Virus record (IMG/VR): IMGVR_UViG_3300031687_000058
Coordinates: 1-33,810 of that record
Strand: one strand, 5' to 3'
Source of the DNA: a virus
DNA length: 33,810 nucleotides
Under the pieces are notes generated by a model. That model saw only the letters and a program-made list of their open reading frames with translations. It was not told the origin of the DNA and ran no database searches. How positions within the stretch are numbered: position 1 is the first letter of the stretch; each line of letters starts with the position of its first letter. Positions 2,888 through 26,891 of this stretch are shown piece by piece. The position numbers and the translations under genes are program-made.

Positions 2888-4502
2888 GCCCTTATCCCCG
2901 TTAGTGCTAGACTCGGTAGGAGTCTTTGGATTAAACACTCAAGCTAACGCTTCTAGTCTAGATCACCGATGGTTAATTAAAGCAGAGAATATAATGCTTA
3001 CCTCAGAAGGTAGGTTAACTTCTCGTAAAGGGATTAGAGCTATTTCTAATTCTGTAGGCAATCACGCTGTAAAGTCTCTACATAATCATAAAAATACAAA
3101 CGGTACATATACTTTAATATCTTCTGCAAATAATAAAATATTTAAAATGGATTTTAGCACTTCTCCTGCTACATCTACTCAACAGAATTTTGCAAACAGT
3201 CCTCAAACTATTTCAGCAGATAATTGGCAATGGGTGCAGTATGATAATAATGCTATGGCAGTTCAGAAAGGACACAAGCCAATACATTATAATCAAACTA
3301 CTGGAGTATGGTCTGATTTAGAAGACGTAACAGGATATACATCACCTGTTGGTGTAACTACATTTAACCCTTCTTGTGTTTTATCTAAGTATGGTAGAAT
3401 GTGGGCAGCAGGTATTTCAGAAGACAAAGAAACTTTATTTTATTCTCAATCATTAAATCATCATAAATTTCAAGGTACTGGAGCTGGCGCAGTTAATATG
3501 AGGTCGGTATGGGGCTATGATGATATAGTTGCATTAGAGTCGTTCAACGGTAAGTTAATTATTTTTGGAAAGCAGAACATAGCTATCTATAATGATCCTT
3601 TTGATCCTAGTGCTGCTACTTTTGCTTTAGATGAAGTTATACACGGAGTAGGGTGTATTGCCCGTGACTCAGTACAAGCCTTTGGTGATGATGTTTTATT
3701 CTTATCTGCTGACGGTGTAAGATCCCTCAATCGTACTAAGATACAAGACAAGATGCCCCTAACAGACTTGACTAAGAATGTCAAGAGTGATATTATAAAA
3801 CATATTATTTCATCTAGTCCAGACGATATTAAGGCTCAGTTTAATCATTCTGGTGGTTACTATATTTTATCGTTTACAGGAATTAATGAAACATACATCT
3901 TAGACTTTAAAGCTCAGAATCCAGACATGACTCCCCGTGTTACTAAGTGGCTTACTGATTTCAGCAGAAGTCCTAAGTCTTACTTTTCTACTAATGAAGG
4001 TATTCTCTACATTGGACTAGGATCTAGTGTTGTAGGTAAAACATTTAATGGTGTAGTTGCTGATTACGATAACTATTTTGATGTAGACTACTCAGGCTCT
4101 ACCGCAATCAATAACGCATATCAAACAATATTTAAAACAGTATGGATGGACTTTGGAAACCCCGACACAGCTAAATTATTAAAACAGTTTTCTTGTGTTA
4201 TAGATGGGGGTCGTGAGCAAGATGTTACAGTTAATTGGTTTAGAGACTACAACAACACACAAGGCGATTCAGCCTCTTTTAATCTTAGGCCCTCATCTTC
4301 TGGAGTTACTGCTTTATACGGTTCCAGTACAAGTTTATATGGTGCGTCTAAATACTCACCTCTGTTCTTCCCTAGAGAGTACAGAATTAATTTAAGTAAA
4401 GCTGCTAAGGTGGTACAGATAGAAATGATAAATTTAATTAAAGGGTTTAAAGGGTCGCTACAGAGCATGACCGTTTTAGCTAAAGGGGGCAAGATTCGAT
4501 GA
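2877..4502 (+). CDS. Tail nozzle / P22 gp10-like beta-propeller protein
   Basis: The ATG at 2877 (MPTKPLSPLVLDSVGVFGLN) is preferred to an upstream in-frame ATG at 2841, which would give a long overlap with the adaptor gene and a non-typical N-terminus. The 541-residue product has the 'N-terminal Leu/Pro, then A-x-N-ML-T-S-E-G-R-L-T-S-R-KG' opening typical of podovirus nozzle proteins, which list DNA-stabilisation/tail-tube subunits, followed by repeated beta strands with aromatic residues consistent with a propeller. Role: distal tail tube that holds DNA in the virion. It overlaps the next start as ATGA (4499-4502). Confidence 0.65.
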   Translation: MPTKPLSPLVLDSVGVFGLNTQANASSLDHRWLIKAENIMLTSEGRLTSRKGIRAISNSVGNHAVKSLHNHKNTNGTYTLISSANNKIFKMDFSTSPATSTQQNFANSPQTISADNWQWVQYDNNAMAVQKGHKPIHYNQTTGVWSDLEDVTGYTSPVGVTTFNPSCVLSKYGRMWAAGISEDKETLFYSQSLNHHKFQGTGAGAVNMRSVWGYDDIVALESFNGKLIIFGKQNIAIYNDPFDPSAATFALDEVIHGVGCIARDSVQAFGDDVLFLSADGVRSLNRTKIQDKMPLTDLTKNVKSDIIKHIISSSPDDIKAQFNHSGGYYILSFTGINETYILDFKAQNPDMTPRVTKWLTDFSRSPKSYFSTNEGILYIGLGSSVVGKTFNGVVADYDNYFDVDYSGSTAINNAYQTIFKTVWMDFGNPDTAKLLKQFSCVIDGGREQDVTVNWFRDYNNTQGDSASFNLRPSSSGVTALYGSSTSLYGASKYSPLFFPREYRINLSKAAKVVQIEMINLIKGFKGSLQSMTVLAKGGKIR

Positions 4503-5152
4503 GTAATTACACGGTACAGATAGCGTGGTCAGGTAAGGATGCTTTAGCAGATTCAGATCCAGCTAAGGTTATTTCAGGAGATAGTTTTAATACTGAATTT
4601 GTAGCAGTTCAAACAGCAGTCAACTCTAAAGCAGAGTTAAATGGTAATGCAGCAGAAGCCTTTAGCGCAGCTACTCCTACGTCTGGTGATACAACTACTA
4701 AAGTAGCTACTACAGCCTTTGTTGCCGCAGCTATTACAACTGCCTCTTCTAATGCAGCTACAGTAAATGGATTTGCTTACCCTGTAGGGTCTGTCTACAC
4801 TTCTATTGTTGCTACTAACCCTGCTACTTTATTAGGAGTAGGCACATGGTCAGCTTTTGGTGCTGGCAGAGTTCTAGTAGGTATTGATTCTTCAGACGCT
4901 TCTTTTAATGTTGTAGAAGAGACAGGTGGTGCTAAGACAGACGCACACGCTCTTTCAATTAGTGAGATACCAGCACACACTCACGCTTCTGGATGGACAT
5001 TAGGCGGTGGTGATGGAAGTGCTAATGTATACGCTACGACCAATGGTGGCGCAGGGGCTCCTGCTTCTGGATCTACAGGTGGTGGAGCAACTCATACACA
5101 CGATATTGTACAGCCTTATGTCGTAGTTTACTTTTGGAAGAGGACAGCATAA
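4499..5152 (+). CDS. Short tail fibre-like protein with metal-binding HxH motifs
   Basis: A 217-residue protein. Residues 1-90 are an Ala/Thr-rich shaft-like region; from ~94 (YPVGSVYTSI ... LLGVGTWSAFGAGRVLVGID) it follows the collar/receptor-binding pattern of T4 gp12-like short fibres. Two HxH motifs, H160-T-H162 (IPAHTH) and H199-T-H201 (HTHDI), and the typical ending PYVVVYFWKR are seen directly; in gp12 such histidines hold a metal ion in the trimer. Predicted role: host adsorption from the tail tip. Glycine-rich loops between the two HxH motifs may be the variable surface. Overlaps its neighbours at both ends. Confidence 0.75.
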   Translation: MSNYTVQIAWSGKDALADSDPAKVISGDSFNTEFVAVQTAVNSKAELNGNAAEAFSAATPTSGDTTTKVATTAFVAAAITTASSNAATVNGFAYPVGSVYTSIVATNPATLLGVGTWSAFGAGRVLVGIDSSDASFNVVEETGGAKTDAHALSISEIPAHTHASGWTLGGGDGSANVYATTNGGAGAPASGSTGGGATHTHDIVQPYVVVYFWKRTA

Positions 5153-7092
5153 TGGCTAATTTTTATAGCAATAGCTCTAGTAACATGACAGGTGGAGATA
5201 CGCGTGGTGAAGATAACCCATATGGAGGATACGCTAACAAAACTACAGGTGCTGGAGGTTACAATAATCCAGCAGGAGGAAATCAAAATAATAATAAAAT
5301 AAAAACAACAATTCCTCCTTCAGCATCAAATATAAATAATGTAAAAACAATATTTGATACTATTTTTGGTAGAGAGCCTAATCCAGAAGCTTTAGCTCAC
5401 TACGCAGAAAAAATGCAGAGTTTAGGCCCTGCTGAAGTTTTAAAGCAGATAAGTGAAAGTCCAGAAGCAGTCCAGCTTAAAAATCAACCTATGAGATTTC
5501 CGTATACAAGCGATTTTGAAAACACTGGAATGTTATCACTAATGGGCAGTCCTAGTGAAACAAACACATACGCTGCTGCACCTACTCAATTTACTACTAG
5601 CGGTACAGGAGCTAATTACCCTGACGCTGTGCCTGATACAATGTTTACGGGAATAGGTAGTGGTCTTACTGGTGGTCTTACAAATTTAATGATAGATAAA
5701 GCAGCAGAAGGACTAGGTGCTGATAATTATCTTGGTGGTTTGTTAAATGCTTATAGTGATTTTGATCCTTTAGGTCAATTTGCTAGTCAAACTATGTACG
5801 GAATGAATGATGAAGCTAAAAGAAAGTATGCTAGATTAGAACTAGAAGACCCTAATTGGTCTAGTATGAGTGAAATTGATCGTGTAGCAAAGGCAAGATC
5901 CTCTCAGATAAATGACCAACTACCTAATGCTTACATACAAGGAAGTCAGAATCTTACTGACTCTCAATTAGCTGCTTTAAAACCAGAAGGTTTTCCTGCT
6001 TCTCAATGGGATTCTTTAAATTCTGACATGAAACTGTCATTAATAGGTGATAGTAAAAATAGCACAGGGGCTGGTTTTCTTAGTGTTTCTGGGAATGCTG
6101 CTGCTGGCGGTCTTCCTGCTGGCAATTCTAATGGGCAGGGTGGTCTTGATTACTTGAGTTTAATAGGAACTGGAGCCACTGGAGCCACTGGAGCCACTGG
6201 AGGAACTACAGGCACTGGAGGAACTACAGGCACTGGAGTAACTACAGGCACTGGAGTAACTACAGGCACTGGAGTAACTACAGGCACTGGAGGAACTACA
6301 GGCACTGGAGGAACTACAGGCACTGGAGGAACTACAGGCACTACAGGCACTGGAGGTGCTTTTACTGGAACTATGTTTAATGGGGAATATACAGGTGATG
6401 CTGTAAATCAGTTATCACAGGCTCGTTCACCTCGTAGTATGGACTTTAATAGTATATACGGAACTACTTCATTTAATCCAGCTACAGGTCAATTTGATCA
6501 ACAAACATCACCTGAATACAATCAATTTCAACAGGGTCTTCTAGGACAGCTTCAGGGCTCTCAGGATGCGTACCAGAGCTTTGATCCACAAGATGCTGCC
6601 TCAGAGTACCTACGTGGAGTAAATGCCCTTAGAGAGCCTATGAGGGAGCAACAGACAGACTCTAAGTTGAGTCGTTTAATTCAGTCTGGTAAACTAGGGT
6701 CTACGGTTGGTACACAAGCTTTAGCTCAATTAGAGACAGAGCAAGAAAGCCAACGGTTCCAAGAAGCAATACAAGCCCAACAATACGGGACTCAAATGCA
6801 AGACCGTATGTTACGCAATCAAGCTGGTATGTTTGGTCTTACTTCTCAGGTAGCCGCAGAGCAATTCAAACCACAACAACAAGCATTAGGTTCAGTACCT
6901 ATGCTACAACAAATCTACGGTTTTGCACAAGAGCCTCAGTTCCAACAAGGTCTAGCCGAACAAGGTATTGGCGCACAGCAAAGTGCTAATAATACAGCAA
7001 ACTGGATGAATCTAGGAACCTCAGTTTTAGGTAGTGACATAGGGCAAGATATATTAGGTGATGGTTGGGGTTGGTTAAAGAGCAAGCTTTAA
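5152..7092 (+). CDS. Internal virion/tail protein with DUF4214-like module and TGGTTG repeats
   Basis: Start ATG 5152 lies in a TAATG overlap with the previous stop and follows GAGGA (about 10 nt upstream); an upstream in-frame ATG at 5134 is less likely. Of 646 residues, 1-60 are Gly/Asn-rich and disordered; ~64-115 (VKTIFDTIFGREPNPEALAHY ... EVLKQISESPEAV) resembles a DUF4214-type helical module; 340-399 is a Gly/Thr collagen-like repeat; ~440-620 is Gln-rich helical sequence (YLRGVNALREPMREQQ ... ) of the kind found in podovirus ejection proteins. Its place before two more large proteins fits a three-protein ejection set (T7 gp14-15-16; P22 gp7-20-16). The assignment rests on position and composition. 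Confidence 0.6.
   Translation: MANFYSNSSSNMTGGDTRGEDNPYGGYANKTTGAGGYNNPAGGNQNNNKIKTTIPPSASNINNVKTIFDTIFGREPNPEALAHYAEKMQSLGPAEVLKQISESPEAVQLKNQPMRFPYTSDFENTGMLSLMGSPSETNTYAAAPTQFTTSGTGANYPDAVPDTMFTGIGSGLTGGLTNLMIDKAAEGLGADNYLGGLLNAYSDFDPLGQFASQTMYGMNDEAKRKYARLELEDPNWSSMSEIDRVAKARSSQINDQLPNAYIQGSQNLTDSQLAALKPEGFPASQWDSLNSDMKLSLIGDSKNSTGAGFLSVSGNAAAGGLPAGNSNGQGGLDYLSLIGTGATGATGATGGTTGTGGTTGTGVTTGTGVTTGTGVTTGTGGTTGTGGTTGTGGTTGTTGTGGAFTGTMFNGEYTGDAVNQLSQARSPRSMDFNSIYGTTSFNPATGQFDQQTSPEYNQFQQGLLGQLQGSQDAYQSFDPQDAASEYLRGVNALREPMREQQTDSKLSRLIQSGKLGSTVGTQALAQLETEQESQRFQEAIQAQQYGTQMQDRMLRNQAGMFGLTSQVAAEQFKPQQQALGSVPMLQQIYGFAQEPQFQQGLAEQGIGAQQSANNTANWMNLGTSVLGSDIGQDILGDGWGWLKSKL
6169..6348 (+). repeat. 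In-frame tandem repeat array (9-nt and 18-nt units)
   Basis: Three copies of ACTGGAGCC (6169-6195) lead into eight 18-nt units (6196-6339) of ACTGGAGGAACTACAGGC and a half unit (6340-6348). The reading frame is kept, giving (TGA)3 then (TGGTTG/TGVTTG)8. Units 3-5 share a gga-to-gta change that turns Gly into Val, so the three variant copies sit together, as expected from local unit duplication. The array probably varies in copy number. Confidence 0.9.
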
Positions 7093-11962: not shown

Positions 11963-12006
11963 AAATAAAAAGGCCCCTTAGATTTCTCTTCGGGGCCTTT
12001 TTATTT
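11963..12006. terminator. Bidirectional rho-independent terminator between convergent blocks
   Basis: AAATAAAAAGGCCCC (11963-11977) and GGGGCCTTTTTATTT (11992-12006) pair perfectly over 15 bp with a 14-nt loop. The GC core is flanked by A and T tracts, so it has the U-tract on either strand. It lies just after the lysozyme-like gene (stop 11953) and reaches 2 nt into the stop codon of the convergent DUF3310 gene (12005-12007). Confidence 0.93.
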
Positions 12007-12238
12007 ACTTTTTTCTATTACCTACATTATCTTCTAACTCTATGAGAAGGTCTATGTAGTGTTTAATCTTTTCTAAGTCCTGTATACCGCCCTTATCACG
12101 CCACCTAGAGATGTATTTAACTATACTACCTTCGATAAAAGATAAATTATTAGCGTGTATGTATTCAATAGGCTGTATGCCACCCATTTGATAATGAGAA
12201 CCTCCTATCTGATTATGTAATGCTGAATCAGGTTCCAT
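12005..12238 (-). CDS. DUF3310 family protein
   Basis: A 77-residue protein with the full DUF3310 pattern: GGSHYQMGGIQPIEYIHANN, then SFIEGSIVKYISRW and KGGIQDLEKIKHYIDLLIE. The family occurs widely in phages, often with nucleotide-metabolism or replication genes; T7 gp1.7, a nucleotide kinase, carries a related region, so a nucleotide-handling role is possible. It is the last gene of the minus-strand transcript and shares its stop codon with the terminator stem. The start overlaps the preceding small ORF by 11 nt. Confidence 0.88.
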   Translation of the reverse strand: MEPDSALHNQIGGSHYQMGGIQPIEYIHANNLSFIEGSIVKYISRWRDKGGIQDLEKIKHYIDLLIELEDNVGNRKK

Positions 12239-12917: not shown

Positions 12918-13757
12918 TTAATTAGTCTCAGTTATTTCAATTACTCTGGGCAAACTCCAAACCTCAGTTAGAAACTTAGGGCCTGTACTATACAGAAAAG
13001 TCCTAAGATCAGGGTAACAAGTATGCTTATAAGCGCAGTAAGAGCATTGTGTAGATAGCTTCATATTTCCACTTTTACCGTCTGGTACGGGATAACTACA
13101 TGGATCAGGCATTTCATCTTTAGATACAATATCTTTTAAGTGAGTGATCCTGTCCTCAATGCTCTTACCTTCTGTCAAGTCTATCATTGCTAAGGCTAAA
13201 TGTCCATTTCCTTTATCCATAGCTAACCAGCCACCCTCTTTAACACCGAGCCCTGCGCCATAGCCTTTTAACTGATCTACATAACCGAATGGATCATCAA
13301 ATTCTACAGTGTTATCCTTGAACTTTTTAAAGGCATAACTGGAGGCAGATTTAACGTCTATAAGTTTACCATCAATAGTACAGTCCATAGAGCCCTTGAC
13401 TCCATTAACCTCTACCTTATCTTGCTCATTAGCGACTGTATGCCCACCTAGACGTACTAACAGTAAGACTAACTCTTCTATGACATGACCATATAAGAAC
13501 TTAATCAACGTAGAGGGCTCTAATTCCTCTTTAGGGTAGTTTTTAGAGTTAAGCCATACCTGTCTATCAGGTTTGCCTACGGACGACATACGCAATCGTG
13601 TGGAGTCTCCCCTCTCTTCAAACAATGACTTAAATACAGCCTCCTTTACGTTAGTTCCAAACAGATCAAATACTGCATCAACATCTACGTTTGGATCTGC
13701 TTTGCTGTTTTTGACTACCGAATAAATATCTTCTACTAATGTGTTTAGTGTTTTCAT
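12918..13757 (-). CDS. RecB/Cas4-like PD-(D/E)XK exonuclease with four-cysteine motif
   Basis: A 279-residue nuclease. The catalytic core reads G-S-M-D125-C-T-I-D-G-K-L-I-D134-V-K136, with an upstream helix YGHVIEELVLLLVRLGG supplying the E/H site and a downstream QLKGYGAGLG helix. C220, C238, C241 and C247 (CSYP...QCSYCAYKHTC) could hold a metal or Fe-S cluster as in Cas4/AddB nucleases. It sits with DNA polymerase and resolvases, so it probably acts like T7 gp6: 5'-3' degradation of host DNA and recombination ends. Substrate polarity is not shown by sequence. Confidence 0.85.
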   Translation of the reverse strand: MKTLNTLVEDIYSVVKNSKADPNVDVDAVFDLFGTNVKEAVFKSLFEERGDSTRLRMSSVGKPDRQVWLNSKNYPKEELEPSTLIKFLYGHVIEELVLLLVRLGGHTVANEQDKVEVNGVKGSMDCTIDGKLIDVKSASSYAFKKFKDNTVEFDDPFGYVDQLKGYGAGLGVKEGGWLAMDKGNGHLALAMIDLTEGKSIEDRITHLKDIVSKDEMPDPCSYPVPDGKSGNMKLSTQCSYCAYKHTCYPDLRTFLYSTGPKFLTEVWSLPRVIEITETN

Positions 13758-13759
13758 TT

Positions 13760-14122
13760 TTATTTCTCTAAATACTTTAGTGCTGATTTAACTGCAAGTA
13801 TGCTATCACCAAGTAAACCTAATCCTTTATTACATCTACTACAGAGTAAGCCCCTAACCTTATTAGTTACATGATCGTGGTCTATACATAAAGACTTGCC
13901 TTCATCTACAAAACAGATACTACATAAATAGTTCTGTTCTTTAAGCATATCGTTATACTCTTGCATGGTTAACTTAAATTTATCTAAGTTTAGTTTTAGT
14001 CTATAATCTTTCCTACAAGACTTACAGGTTCCTTGTAGCTTGTCTTTCTTTGTCTTATCTTTATCAAAACCCCTTATAGGCTTCGTTATATTACAGATAT
14101 TACACATTTTAATGGCACTCAT
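13760..14122 (-). CDS. Recombination endonuclease VII family nuclease (T4 gp49-like)
   Basis: A 120-residue protein with two Zn-type cysteine pairs at the N-terminus (C7/C10, C33/C36), and the endonuclease VII core YNDMLKEQNYLCSIC, C67/C70, D81-H-D-H84, KVRGLLCSRCNKGLG with C94/C97 and N98. This His-Me finger family cleaves Holliday junctions and branched DNA; free-standing members can also be mobile. Its start overlaps the polymerase 3' end by 14 nt. It is the second predicted resolvase of the same transcript. The extra N-terminal cysteine quartet differs from T4 gp49. Confidence 0.9.
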   Translation of the reverse strand: MSAIKMCNICNITKPIRGFDKDKTKKDKLQGTCKSCRKDYRLKLNLDKFKLTMQEYNDMLKEQNYLCSICFVDEGKSLCIDHDHVTNKVRGLLCSRCNKGLGLLGDSILAVKSALKYLEK

Positions 14123-17879: not shown

Positions 17880-18164
17880 TTATGGAAGTCTCATTATCTG
17901 GTTTATTTTTTCTTTTCTTTGACTATCAATTTTACCGTACAAATCATTGTATGCGATAGCTGAAACGATAGCACTCTGGCCTCTATGTAATAACGTGGCG
18001 CAGTTTAAGTAAGAAACTCCTAAGACTCGCAGTTCTACTAGCTTGTCTAATTCAGAAGACTTCCAGTACACTTGAGGGCCCCTGTATCTTTTATTATCTT
18101 CTTTTGGTTTGATTTCTTCAGTTCTGAAACTTGCAGGAATCTTTGGTTTGAATATTAAGCTCAT
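17880..18164 (-). CDS. GcrA/SANT-like helix-turn-helix protein (candidate regulator)
   Basis: A 94-residue protein. Residues ~33-80 (YWKSSELDKLVELRVLGVSY, then CATLLHRGQSAIVSAIAYND) follow the W-x4-E-x-L-x-E-L-x-x-x-G-x-S ... A-x-x-L-x-R pattern of GcrA- or Myb/SANT-type HTH domains. The N-terminus is basic and flexible. GGAG lies ~11 nt upstream of ATG. It is the only HTH-like protein I can see in the window, so it is a candidate binder of the control-region repeats. This is a fold guess from a short pattern. Confidence 0.5.
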   Translation of the reverse strand: MSLIFKPKIPASFRTEEIKPKEDNKRYRGPQVYWKSSELDKLVELRVLGVSYLNCATLLHRGQSAIVSAIAYNDLYGKIDSQRKEKINQIMRLP

Positions 18165-23717: not shown

Positions 23718-23978
23718 CTATTTAGGCCCATAAAAGGGGTTTAAGTTAACCATAGTAAACATATAATTTATGTTACAAGGTCTAACTTCCTTGTCTAAAT
23801 AAGTAGATAATGCAATGGCTATGTCGTCTCTTGGGGTCATAGCCCTATGAGTAGAGAACCACCGATGACCACAACCATCAGCGCAGCATACGGAGAAATC
23901 ATCACCGCGATACTCTACTCTGTAATTAATGCCACTCACTACCGCAGTGGCGCATGTTCCTAGTTCTAAGTTATGCAT
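23718..23978 (-). CDS. Promoter-proximal early protein, Cys/His-rich (86 aa)
   Basis: First gene of the minus-strand block. Cysteines C9, C31, C32, C36 and histidines H38, H44 (FSVCCADGCGHRWFSTHRAM) could form a metal site. The rest is beta-rich with a hydrophobic end. Ribosome binding site is weak (AGAGT). First early genes in T7-like phages (0.3, 0.4 etc.) often counter host defence or take over host functions, so this position makes it a candidate for such a role; nothing in sequence identifies one. Confidence 0.6.
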   Translation of the reverse strand: MHNLELGTCATAVVSGINYRVEYRGDDFSVCCADGCGHRWFSTHRAMTPRDDIAIALSTYLDKEVRPCNINYMFTMVNLNPFYGPK

Positions 23979-24206
23979 AATTTAATACTCTATTTTGGTT
24001 TAACTTTAAAGTGACTCTAATAGGGGGATCTATTGAGCCACTATAAAGGTAAACAAAACGTACGCTTCTCGTTACACTCCAGCGACCGACTATTAAAGCC
24101 GTTACAACCCACCGATGAGGTCAGACTAGATCCAAGCTTTAGGGGCTCTAGATGGGTCGGTTAACTCCCATACAGATAGAATAGCAGGTCTAGTAATCGG
24201 TGCGCT

Positions 24207-24240
24207 CTAAATACGACACCTGAATACCTAAACACGACAC
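24207..24240. repeat. Tandem pair of CTAAAYACGACAC, with a diverged distant copy
   Basis: CTAAATACGACAC (24207-24219) and CTAAACACGACAC (24228-24240) have a 21-bp period, two helical turns. A diverged copy, CTAAACGCGACTT, is at 24472-24484 beside TCGACAC (24461-24467). Helical phasing suggests protein-binding sites just downstream of the candidate early promoter. Confidence 0.7.
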
Positions 24241-24248
24241 AGCTATAA

Positions 24249-24329: not shown

Positions 24330-24505
24330 GGAAATGCTCTCTAACGAATAAAATAAGTTAGTCTATCCTAAGATATAGACCTAAGCTAAAACCACTCATA
24401 AGACAATCTAGGGCCCTTAATGGATATATAGACTTGATACCTGATCAGTATGTTCTAGAATCGACACTTATCTAAACGCGACTTGGTACAGATATTGCAT
24501 ACTTA

Positions 24506-24600
24506 GCAACAACCATGCCAACAATAGACAGACAACCTATACAATAATCATGCCAACATTAGCCACACTAGATTCACTAGCTATACAATAATCATGCCAA
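24506..24600. repeat. Direct repeats of CTATACAATAATCATGCCAA
   Basis: Exact 20-bp copies at 24537-24556 and 24581-24600 (44-bp period), with a third diverged copy, GCAACAACCATGCCAACA, starting at 24506. All three share CATGCCAA (24514, 24549, 24593). Spacing of 35 and 44 bp between cores. Confidence 0.85.
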
Positions 24601-24657
24601 GAATACCACGCTCATAGGTTCTTTCTCTTGTCAATTCTGGGCGCATATGTGACCCAT

Positions 24658-24773
24658 GAGTCAGGCCGTGACTATCAGACACACTCTGGTCACATTGTGA
24701 CTATCGGGCTGCCTTTGGTCATTCCGTGACTATTCGGCACTCTCTGGTCACATTATGACTCACAAGTCATGGG
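24658..24773. repeat. Four tandem 29-bp units with GTCA-N5-TGAC dyads (operator or iteron array)
   Basis: Units begin at 24658, 24687, 24716 and 24745, each exactly 29 bp. Units 2-4 start TGGTCA, unit 1 GAGTCA; GTGACTAT (ATGACTCA in unit 4) follows 10-11 nt into each. The core of each is a dyad: GTCAGGCCGTGAC, GTCACATTGTGAC, GTCATTCCGTGAC, GTCACATTATGAC. The spacers between dyads are less conserved. Repeated palindromes at fixed spacing are typical of repressor/activator operators and origin iterons. Confidence 0.85.
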
Positions 24774-24796
24774 GGGGCCCCCTGTGGCTAATGACT
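24756..24796. promoter_or_regulatory. G7C5 dyad flanked by TGACT/AGTCAT inverted repeats
   Basis: TGACT (24756-24760) and AGTCA (24765-24769) form one inverted pair; AGTCAT (24765-24770) and ATGACT (24791-24796) form another that encloses the G7C5 run (24771-24782, containing the palindrome GGGGGCCCCC). It abuts the fourth 29-bp unit and re-uses its TGAC half-site. A structural or protein-binding element is likely; function unknown. Confidence 0.55.
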
Positions 24797-24954
24797 GTAA
24801 ACGTATACAGGCTCATAGGCACATGGGAGGGAAAATGAGGAAATAAGAGGAAGAGGTATAATTAAGAAGTCAAGCATTAAGTGGATATTTAATAGGACAG
24901 AAGTAGAATCTGTAGACCAAACAGACTGTATTGAGGGGGAGGACTAGATTAGAC

Positions 24955-24983
24955 TTGACTTATGTTAATAAATATGTTATAAT
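24955..24983 (+). promoter_or_regulatory. Sigma70-type promoter for the terminase/structural block
   Basis: TTGACT (24955-24960), 17-nt spacer, TATAAT (24978-24983): one mismatch from the full consensus, with optimal spacing. Transcription would start near 24990 and give a ~190-nt leader to the small terminase gene. Host RNA polymerase is the expected user because no phage polymerase gene is seen. Confidence 0.8.
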
Positions 24984-25180: not shown

Positions 25181-25651
25181 ATGAGTAAATCAACAGAAGA
25201 ATTAAGTCCTCGTACTGGAAAGAAAAAGACTAAACATAAAGGAAGTTCATTACTCTATAAGGGTATGCCTCCTTTAAATCCAGCAGGAAGACCTAAAGGA
25301 AGTGTCGGTAAGTACACCCAACTCTCTAGAGAATTAATGTCTGAGAGAGGGCCTGATATAGTCAATAAGGTAATTGAGTTGGCTATGGAAGGAGATACTA
25401 CATGTCTGAAGATGTGTCTGGATAGAATACTGCCCCCTAAGAGGGATGTTGAAGTTAAACATGAAGGTGGTCAGGCTATAAACATCACTGTAGCTCAGTT
25501 AGGCAATCAAGCTCAGGATGCCATAGAACACGTAGGTGGTCAGGTTATAGAACACAGCCTATCTAAATCTATTGCAAAGAGTAAAAAGAAAGAGGACAAG
25601 GCATACGATGCTATAGTAGTGTCTGTTCTAGAAGAAGACGAGAATGAGTGA
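25181..25651 (+). CDS. terS: Small terminase subunit (DUF5681-like TerS)
   Basis: A 156-residue protein directly before the large terminase with an 8-nt overlap. It begins with a basic tail, then the DUF5681-type motif LNPAGRPKGSVGKYTQLSRE, and CLKMCLDRILPPKRDVEV, both typical of small terminases in this kind of phage. The C-terminus is charged. It should recognise the genome's packaging site and recruit TerL. It is the first gene after the sigma70-like promoter. Confidence 0.82.
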   Translation: MSKSTEELSPRTGKKKTKHKGSSLLYKGMPPLNPAGRPKGSVGKYTQLSRELMSERGPDIVNKVIELAMEGDTTCLKMCLDRILPPKRDVEVKHEGGQAINITVAQLGNQAQDAIEHVGGQVIEHSLSKSIAKSKKKEDKAYDAIVVSVLEEDENE

Positions 25652-26891
25652 TATACAGGTAAGTCTAACTCCTGCACAGATGGAGATATTTAACTCACCA
25701 GCTCGTTTTAAAGTAGCAGCGTGTGGTAGACGTTTCGGAAAGAGTTACCTTGCAGCGTGGACGTTATTGATTAAAGGTCTAGAGTCACAAAGCAAGGATA
25801 TATTCTATATAGCCCCTACCTTTCAACAGGCAAAAGACATTCTATGGGGATTGTTGAAAGATTTGGGTAGAGATGTGATAAAGTCTACTCACGAGAATAC
25901 AGCTACAATAACCCTAATAAATGGTAGGAAGATATACCTGAAGGGTTCGGACAGACCAGATACACTACGAGGTGTAGGTCTGGCATATGTAGTGATGGAT
26001 GAATATGCTTTTATGAAGCCCTCTGTCTTTGAACAGATCATCCGACCTACCTTAGCTGACGTTAAAGGTGAAGCCCTATTTATCGGAACACCCGAAGGGC
26101 GTAACCACTTCTACGATATATACATAGCTGCACAAGACGACCCTGAGTGGGAAGCCTTTAGTTTTAACTCTACTGATAATCCACTGATAGACCCTAAAGA
26201 GATTGAAGTTGCTAGAAGGTCTATGTCTTCACAGGCATTCCGTCAGGAGTTTGAGGCTTCATTTGAATCCTTCTCAGGCGGTATCTTTAAAGATGAATGG
26301 TTTGAAACCTCAGAAGAACCAGACTACGGACATTACATTGTCTCGGTTGACCCTGCTGGTTTTGAGCAATCTGCTAAAGATAGAGGAAAGTCTGGTTCTA
26401 AACTAGATGAAACCGCTATAGCTATAGTAAAGATTTGTGGTGATACTTGGTGGGTAAAAGATATATTACACGGTAGGTGGAACATAAAGAAGACCGCAGA
26501 GAATATACTTAACTCTGCAATAGATAACGAAGCGTCTACAGTAGGCGTAGAGTCAGGGGCTTTGAAGAATGCAATCATGCCCTATCTAGAAGACCTAATG
26601 AGAATACAAGGTCGATGGGTCGTAATCACTGATGTAACTCACGGTGGTAAAAAGAAGACTGACCGTATCACATGGGCCCTACAGGGTCGCATGGAACACC
26701 GAAAGATCAAGTTCAACAAAGACAGAGATTGGAAACACTTTGAAGATCAAATGATTTCTTTCCCTAGCCCACAAGTACACGATGATCTGCTAGATGCTTT
26801 AGCATACATAGATCAAGTATCAGTAGCAGATTTTACCAACTCTATCGAAATAGAAGAGTGGGAACCAATGGATTTAGAAGCAGGATATTAA
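25644..26891 (+). CDS. terL: Large terminase subunit (ATPase-nuclease)
   Basis: A 415-residue packaging motor. ATPase: Walker A GRRFGKS (28-34), Walker B YVVMD119-E120, coupling motif FIGTPEGR. Nuclease: VSVD236-PAG, VGVE303-SG, and D380-D-L-L-D384 supply the acidic cluster of the RNase H-like fold. It cuts concatemeric DNA and drives it through the portal. Slightly short for the family (usually 420-600 aa) but all motors and nuclease motifs are present. The portal starts 3 nt downstream. Confidence 0.96.
   Translation: MSDIQVSLTPAQMEIFNSPARFKVAACGRRFGKSYLAAWTLLIKGLESQSKDIFYIAPTFQQAKDILWGLLKDLGRDVIKSTHENTATITLINGRKIYLKGSDRPDTLRGVGLAYVVMDEYAFMKPSVFEQIIRPTLADVKGEALFIGTPEGRNHFYDIYIAAQDDPEWEAFSFNSTDNPLIDPKEIEVARRSMSSQAFRQEFEASFESFSGGIFKDEWFETSEEPDYGHYIVSVDPAGFEQSAKDRGKSGSKLDETAIAIVKICGDTWWVKDILHGRWNIKKTAENILNSAIDNEASTVGVESGALKNAIMPYLEDLMRIQGRWVVITDVTHGGKKKTDRITWALQGRMEHRKIKFNKDRDWKHFEDQMISFPSPQVHDDLLDALAYIDQVSVADFTNSIEIEEWEPMDLEAGY

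Follow-up and report, generated by a model that had tools for sequence, protein, structure and literature searches.

To our knowledge, it has not been established how small marine phages that carry a T7-like replisome without a phage RNA polymerase begin DNA synthesis or label their DNA for packaging. In the window analyzed here, by which we mean the whole 33,810-nucleotide stretch of IMG/VR virus record IMGVR_UViG_3300031687_000058, a row of four GTCA-N5-TGAC dyads lies ahead of the terminase genes, and the question is what this array does. It belongs to a conserved, single-copy, composite cis-element, which gives the problem of replication start and packaging a precise target.

The dyads and their intergenic setting

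The array sits in a gap between the first early ORF, which starts at 23978 on the minus strand, and the first late ORF, which starts at 25181 on the plus strand, with no ORF longer than 43 aa between the two; the initial annotation was right to place it between divergent early and late blocks. Minus-strand genes at about 12–24 kb encode a primase-helicase, a T7-like polymerase, an exonuclease, endonucleases and an SSB-like protein, and the plus strand carries terminase, portal, capsid and tail genes. One relative (L013) covers terL and, beyond the point where the window ends on the right, continues with sequence that matches the left part of the window; the map therefore closes, with the array in a large divergent gap. 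Pelagibacter and Rhizobium phages are among those with the nearest primase homologues, a loose hint at the organism and its host. Family searches of the window proteins matched neither a phage RNA polymerase, among those scanned, nor a CI-type repressor, in agreement with the earlier remark that neither was in view.

The dyads start 29, 29 and 29 bp apart, as first described, except that the original frame (24658–24773) begins each unit 2 bp earlier and overlooks half-sites in register at both ends of the array (24630 and about 24766; Table 1). No other perfect GTCA-N5-TGAC copy exists in the 33.8-kb record (33810 bases); a first-order Markov model expects 0.4 per window, and 300 simulations gave at most 3, where sites were counted without requiring register. 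GTCA/TGAC pairs with other spacers (lengths 0–15) occur in the window at 0–1 sites each, and a scan of it for three dyads sharing half-sites within 140 bp returned only the array and one loose, irregularly spaced set at 13736–13854. TRF reports the array as a 29-bp repeat with 3.2 copies and 67% matches; given so low a match, it is not a recent perfect duplication.

Table 1. Positions in the window of the array, its flanking features and the genes discussed
Feature	Position	Strand	Remark
Dyad 1, GTCAGGCCGTGAC	24660..24672	none	direct sequence reading
Dyad 2, GTCACATTGTGAC	24689..24701	none	direct sequence reading
Dyad 3, GTCATTCCGTGAC	24718..24730	none	direct sequence reading
Dyad 4, GTCACATTATGAC	24747..24759	none	direct sequence reading
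Left half-site GTCA (in TTGTCAATTC)	24630..24633	+	30 bp before dyad 1; within clade-conserved box
Right half-site GTCA	24766..24769	+	19 bp past dyad 4; abuts G-run
G/C element, G-run/C-run (GGGGGGGCCCCC within)	about 24770..24783	none	one per genome
CTCATAGG box, left copy	24611..24618	+	
CTCATAGG box, right copy	24812..24819	+	
Purine-rich tract	24824..24856	+	upstream of late promoter
Sigma-70 promoter TTGACT-17-TATAAT for terS-terL	24955..24983	+	
Putative small terminase TerS (DUF5681)	25181..25651	+	
Large terminase TerL	25644..26891	+	
Three-helix HTH protein, initially proposed binder	17880..18164	-	

The dyad array is half of a composite element, which also comprises the G/C element, box, purine-rich tract and promoter. 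The G/C element, overlooked at first, begins 23–24 bp, and in nearly all relatives 24 bp, past the point where the last dyad starts in window-clade genomes with an intact array, and 20 bp past it in L089 and L117; it is essentially the sole such sequence in each contig, and it survives where the dyads have decayed or been lost. The CTCATAGG box has two copies in the same region of a distant relative (L110). GC skew is +0.41 over 24780–24955, upstream of the late promoter. That promoter, absent from the first description, is near-consensus and lies about 184–260 bp past the G element in most relatives; it matches the consensus at 12/12 positions in L089 and was not found at a 10/12 threshold in L013, L015 or L110. 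An Rfam search returned nothing credible.

The gap holds other repeats. Direct repeat pairs AAATACGACAC / AAACACGACAC, at a pitch of about 18–21 bp, lie upstream of the early genes at 24205–24241 and 24455–24484 and recur in relatives, L021 and L027 among them; they may be an early-promoter or regulator element. An inverted repeat, AGTGACTCTAATAG...CTATTGAGCCACT (24010–24045), just upstream of the first early gene, is retained in relatives. Repeats of about 44 bp with ACAATAATCATGCCAA (24510–24613) are variable between relatives, and the equivalent segment of L007, L008 and L011 differs and holds DnaA-box clusters. Elsewhere, an 18-bp coding tandem repeat of 9.9 copies (6165–6342) lies inside the 5134–7092 ORF.

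Conservation among relatives

Relatives were gathered by a TerL search that reached loci from 100% to about 50% identity. They are metagenome contigs of shared ancestry, so that counts of contigs are not counts of independent events. In about 20 of them (TerL 100–81% identity) the array is at the same place, and the region is retained in window-clade loci with enough upstream sequence. The number of dyads, near-perfect ones included, ranges from 2 to 7. Over 81 intervals, the pitch is 29 bp in 66 and 19 bp in 12, values that differ by one helical turn, with 30, 38 and 48 bp once each; the "zero spacing drift" reported initially thus holds in the window genome and not across its clade, which uses both 29 and 19 bp. 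In long contigs, dyad clusters occur at this locus only. Farther out, L089 and L117 (TerL 47%) have three dyads at a 29-bp pitch at the same place, and L110 (TerL 50%) has three there at 20 and 22 bp. Arrays in L021–L023 and L027–L028 have decayed, in register, and L031–L034 (about 70% TerL identity) have none.

Might the array be a neutral tandem duplication without function? Tandem repeats arise readily, and the flanking 44-bp repeats at 24510–24613 do vary between relatives. Against this, in two aligned groups, none of 80 half-site columns varies, compared with 18 of 168 columns in the N5 and spacers (Fisher P = 0.001), no array having been excluded on account of a mutated half-site. The initial annotation had seen conservation concentrated in the palindromes, which is true of the window's own units, and had proposed that dyads should stay conserved in related phages while spacers drift; among the closer relatives they do, which supports selection on the dyads. 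It had also held that an absent array or equally conserved spacers in related genomes would indicate neutral duplication; the closer relatives show neither. The quantized pitch and the persistence of the array to 47% TerL identity likewise argue against neutrality, which we regard as highly improbable.

Beyond these relatives, the control region matched no isolate phage at the DNA level, and the terminase-proximal regions of the isolate pelagiphages HTVC010P, HTVC111P and HTVC026P hold no comparable array. Host chromosomes provided no convincing case of a 29/19 array among the matches listed, which were instead TetR operators and other repeats. Triplets of GTCA-N5-TGAC by tetR genes, likely TetR operators, occur in L292 (331–381), L313 (221–271) and L357 (3223–3285). 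Many of the arrays from the collection scan fall within coding regions, in repeats or initiator genes, and were excluded from the intergenic count. In an unrelated contig, L092, dense GTCA/TGAC repeats (19-bp dyads, then units of about 39 bp) occupy 3935–4170, upstream of an Sf6-type TerS; in L133, several short palindromic repeat families, including GTCAATTTTTGAC at a 19-bp pitch, occupy 815–1220, with a terminase gene about 2 kb downstream. The exact G-run pattern was rejected as a general marker, as its matches were mostly chance ones and few were near a related TerL. Together, the dyads, the 29/19-bp rule, the G/C element and the terS neighborhood form a signature by which the same control region could be spotted in uncultivated phages.

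Origin, packaging site or operator

The initial annotation offered "switch or origin," a fair shortlist, and we find more evidence for an origin than for a switch. The reading that we favor, tentatively, is that the array is an iteron-type replication origin, at which we infer protein binding, melting and initiation. In this view, the noncoding gap that separates early from late genes would contain a composite origin, and the array, a row of dimer-binding sites resembling iterons, would be its recognition half. Initiator dimers, phage- or host-encoded, would bind each GTCA-N5-TGAC dyad, and a pitch of 29 or 19 bp would rotate each dimer by a near-equal angle relative to its neighbor, making one wrapped complex possible. 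Such a complex could strain or melt the adjoining DNA, be it the G/C element, the purine-rich tract or the AT-rich left flank, and melting would give the T7-like primase-helicase and polymerase access, a role that in T7 falls to the phage RNA polymerase.

This reading is favored by the invariant half-sites amid changing N5 and spacers, by the near-exclusive 29/19-bp pitch, by the confinement of dyad clusters to this locus in long contigs and by a half-site geometry equal to that of lambda iterons. Several further observations favor it. First, a copy number of 2–7 is typical of iterons. Second, where the same dyad arrays lie inside ORFs of unrelated phages, 8 of the 10 ORFs tested match replication-initiator or helicase-loader families. 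Third, the cumulative GC-skew minimum is at the array in array-bearing contigs, a genome-wide signal that gene orientation confounds; when noncoding sequence alone is counted, skew is negative before the element and positive after it in every genome checked, namely the window and 7 relatives, the positive side in the window being upstream of the late promoter. Fourth, three close relatives (L007, L008 and L011) carry 2–3 strict DnaA boxes (TTATCCACA/TTATACACA) about 135–185 bp before the first dyad; the boxes are absent in the window and the other relatives, and their confinement to one subclade probably reflects a single event. Against an origin stand the relatives in which the array is missing (L031–L034) or decayed (L021–L023, L027–L028). 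Nor is it obvious what the G/C element would do in an iteron origin, and no window protein scanned matched an O-like or Rep initiator in PHROGs or Pfam.

A cos or pac site, a possibility that the initial annotation left unconsidered, is a serious rival because of the constant position by terS and the adjacent G/C element, if a less probable reading. Here, the small terminase or a helper would bind the dyads, and TerL would cut the adjoining G/C element, as at lambda cosB/cosN. In the window clade, and in L089, L117 and L110 (TerL 47–50% to the window), terS-terL directly follow the array; so they do in L092, where the Sf6-type TerS is unrelated and the TerL different. Its G/C neighbor, at a fixed 20–24 bp from the last dyad start, is conserved better than the array itself, and related phages L041, L045 and L211 retain a G-rich element upstream of their terminase genes. 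The element coincides with the ends of three contigs (in one sample L106 ends on one side of it and L001 begins on the other, and L012 begins with GGGGGGG), for which a rough estimate gives P of about 0.001. Yet most contigs pass through the element, and G003 assembles into a circle whose ends overlap by 127 bp; assemblies can also break at homopolymers that vary between strains, and L031 and L033 have a homologous TerS but no array.

The binding protein, too, bears on the choice. The genes common to the window and G003 encode the replisome, SSB, a RusA-like nuclease, a nucleotide-kinase-associated protein, a small zinc-ribbon-like protein, TerS, TerL and structural proteins; among them, TerS alone would be expected to bind specific DNA, as packaging would have it, but its model has no HTH and only three confident central helices. 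Other candidates fared as follows. The HTH-like protein nominated initially does have a true HTH fold (AlphaFold pLDDT about 90 over residues 31–90) but is missing from the array-bearing G001 and G003, which rules it out as a universal binder; a PDB fold search with it gave generic HTH matches only, none significant. The 77-aa protein at 12005–12238, common to the window and G003, belongs to a nucleotide-kinase-associated family and is not a DNA binder. The AlphaFold model of TerS is too weak for fold assignment beyond DUF5681, and a winged-helix-like protein of L117 has no homologue in the window clade by profile comparison with the two families tried. It is possible that the binder is a host protein, or that different phage proteins serve in different lineages.

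That the dyads are operators, bound by a phage or host regulator that times the divergent early and late transcription units, seems unlikely to us. The divergent gap would suit such an array, a consensus sigma-70 late promoter would need control, and GTCA-N5-TGAC triplets do precede tetR-efflux operons in Bacteroidota and, in Acidobacteria, neighbor a tetR gene. But in the promoter scan the array neither overlaps nor abuts a promoter that it might regulate: 196 bp separate the last dyad from the late promoter, and no strong conserved leftward promoter of the sigma-70-like type covered by the scan was found near the array. The dyads, further, occur at a single place rather than at several promoters, and neither G001 nor G003 has the candidate HTH protein.

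Replication origin, the favored reading, and packaging site are not mutually exclusive. It is conceivable, if doubtful, that phages with a T7 replisome, having lost or never possessed an RNA polymerase of their own, begin replication at an intergenic, helically quantized array of dyad iterons fused with a G-run/purine-tract element next to the terminase genes, and that this composite element might also serve packaging, joining both processes at one site.

Comparison with known systems

The likely TetR multi-dyad operators of L292, L313 and L357 share the same GTCA-N5-TGAC dyads, with a 19-bp pitch in L292 and L313, but they lie by a regulator gene start or promoter, whereas the window array has no adjacent regulator gene and overlaps no recognizable promoter. 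The T7 primary origin consists of phage promoters and an AT-rich segment. The window array would likewise serve a T7-like primase-helicase and polymerase; a T7-type origin would, however, call for a phage RNA polymerase and its promoters, and the window, with no polymerase match among the proteins scanned and no phage promoters, has a dyad array instead.

The lambda iteron ATCCCTCAAAACGAGGGA contains CCTC-N5-GAGG (PMC7466680). The iterons of oriLambda, which the O protein binds, resemble our array in being tandem dyads of 4-N5-4 half-site geometry, few and variable in copy number, at one site per genome. They differ in lying inside the O gene at a pitch of about 20 bp, whereas the window array is intergenic, at 29/19 bp, beside terS, and has a G/C element and no recognized O protein. 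As no O-like initiator was recognized, we do not class the array as a lambda-type iteron origin. At lambda cos, repeated binding sites (the R-sites of cosB) lie by a unique GC-rich element (cosN) upstream of terS-terL, much as the putative sites here lie by the G/C element. The R-sites, however, are not regularly arrayed dyads, and cosN has them on its terS side, whereas the window array lies on the early side of its G/C element.
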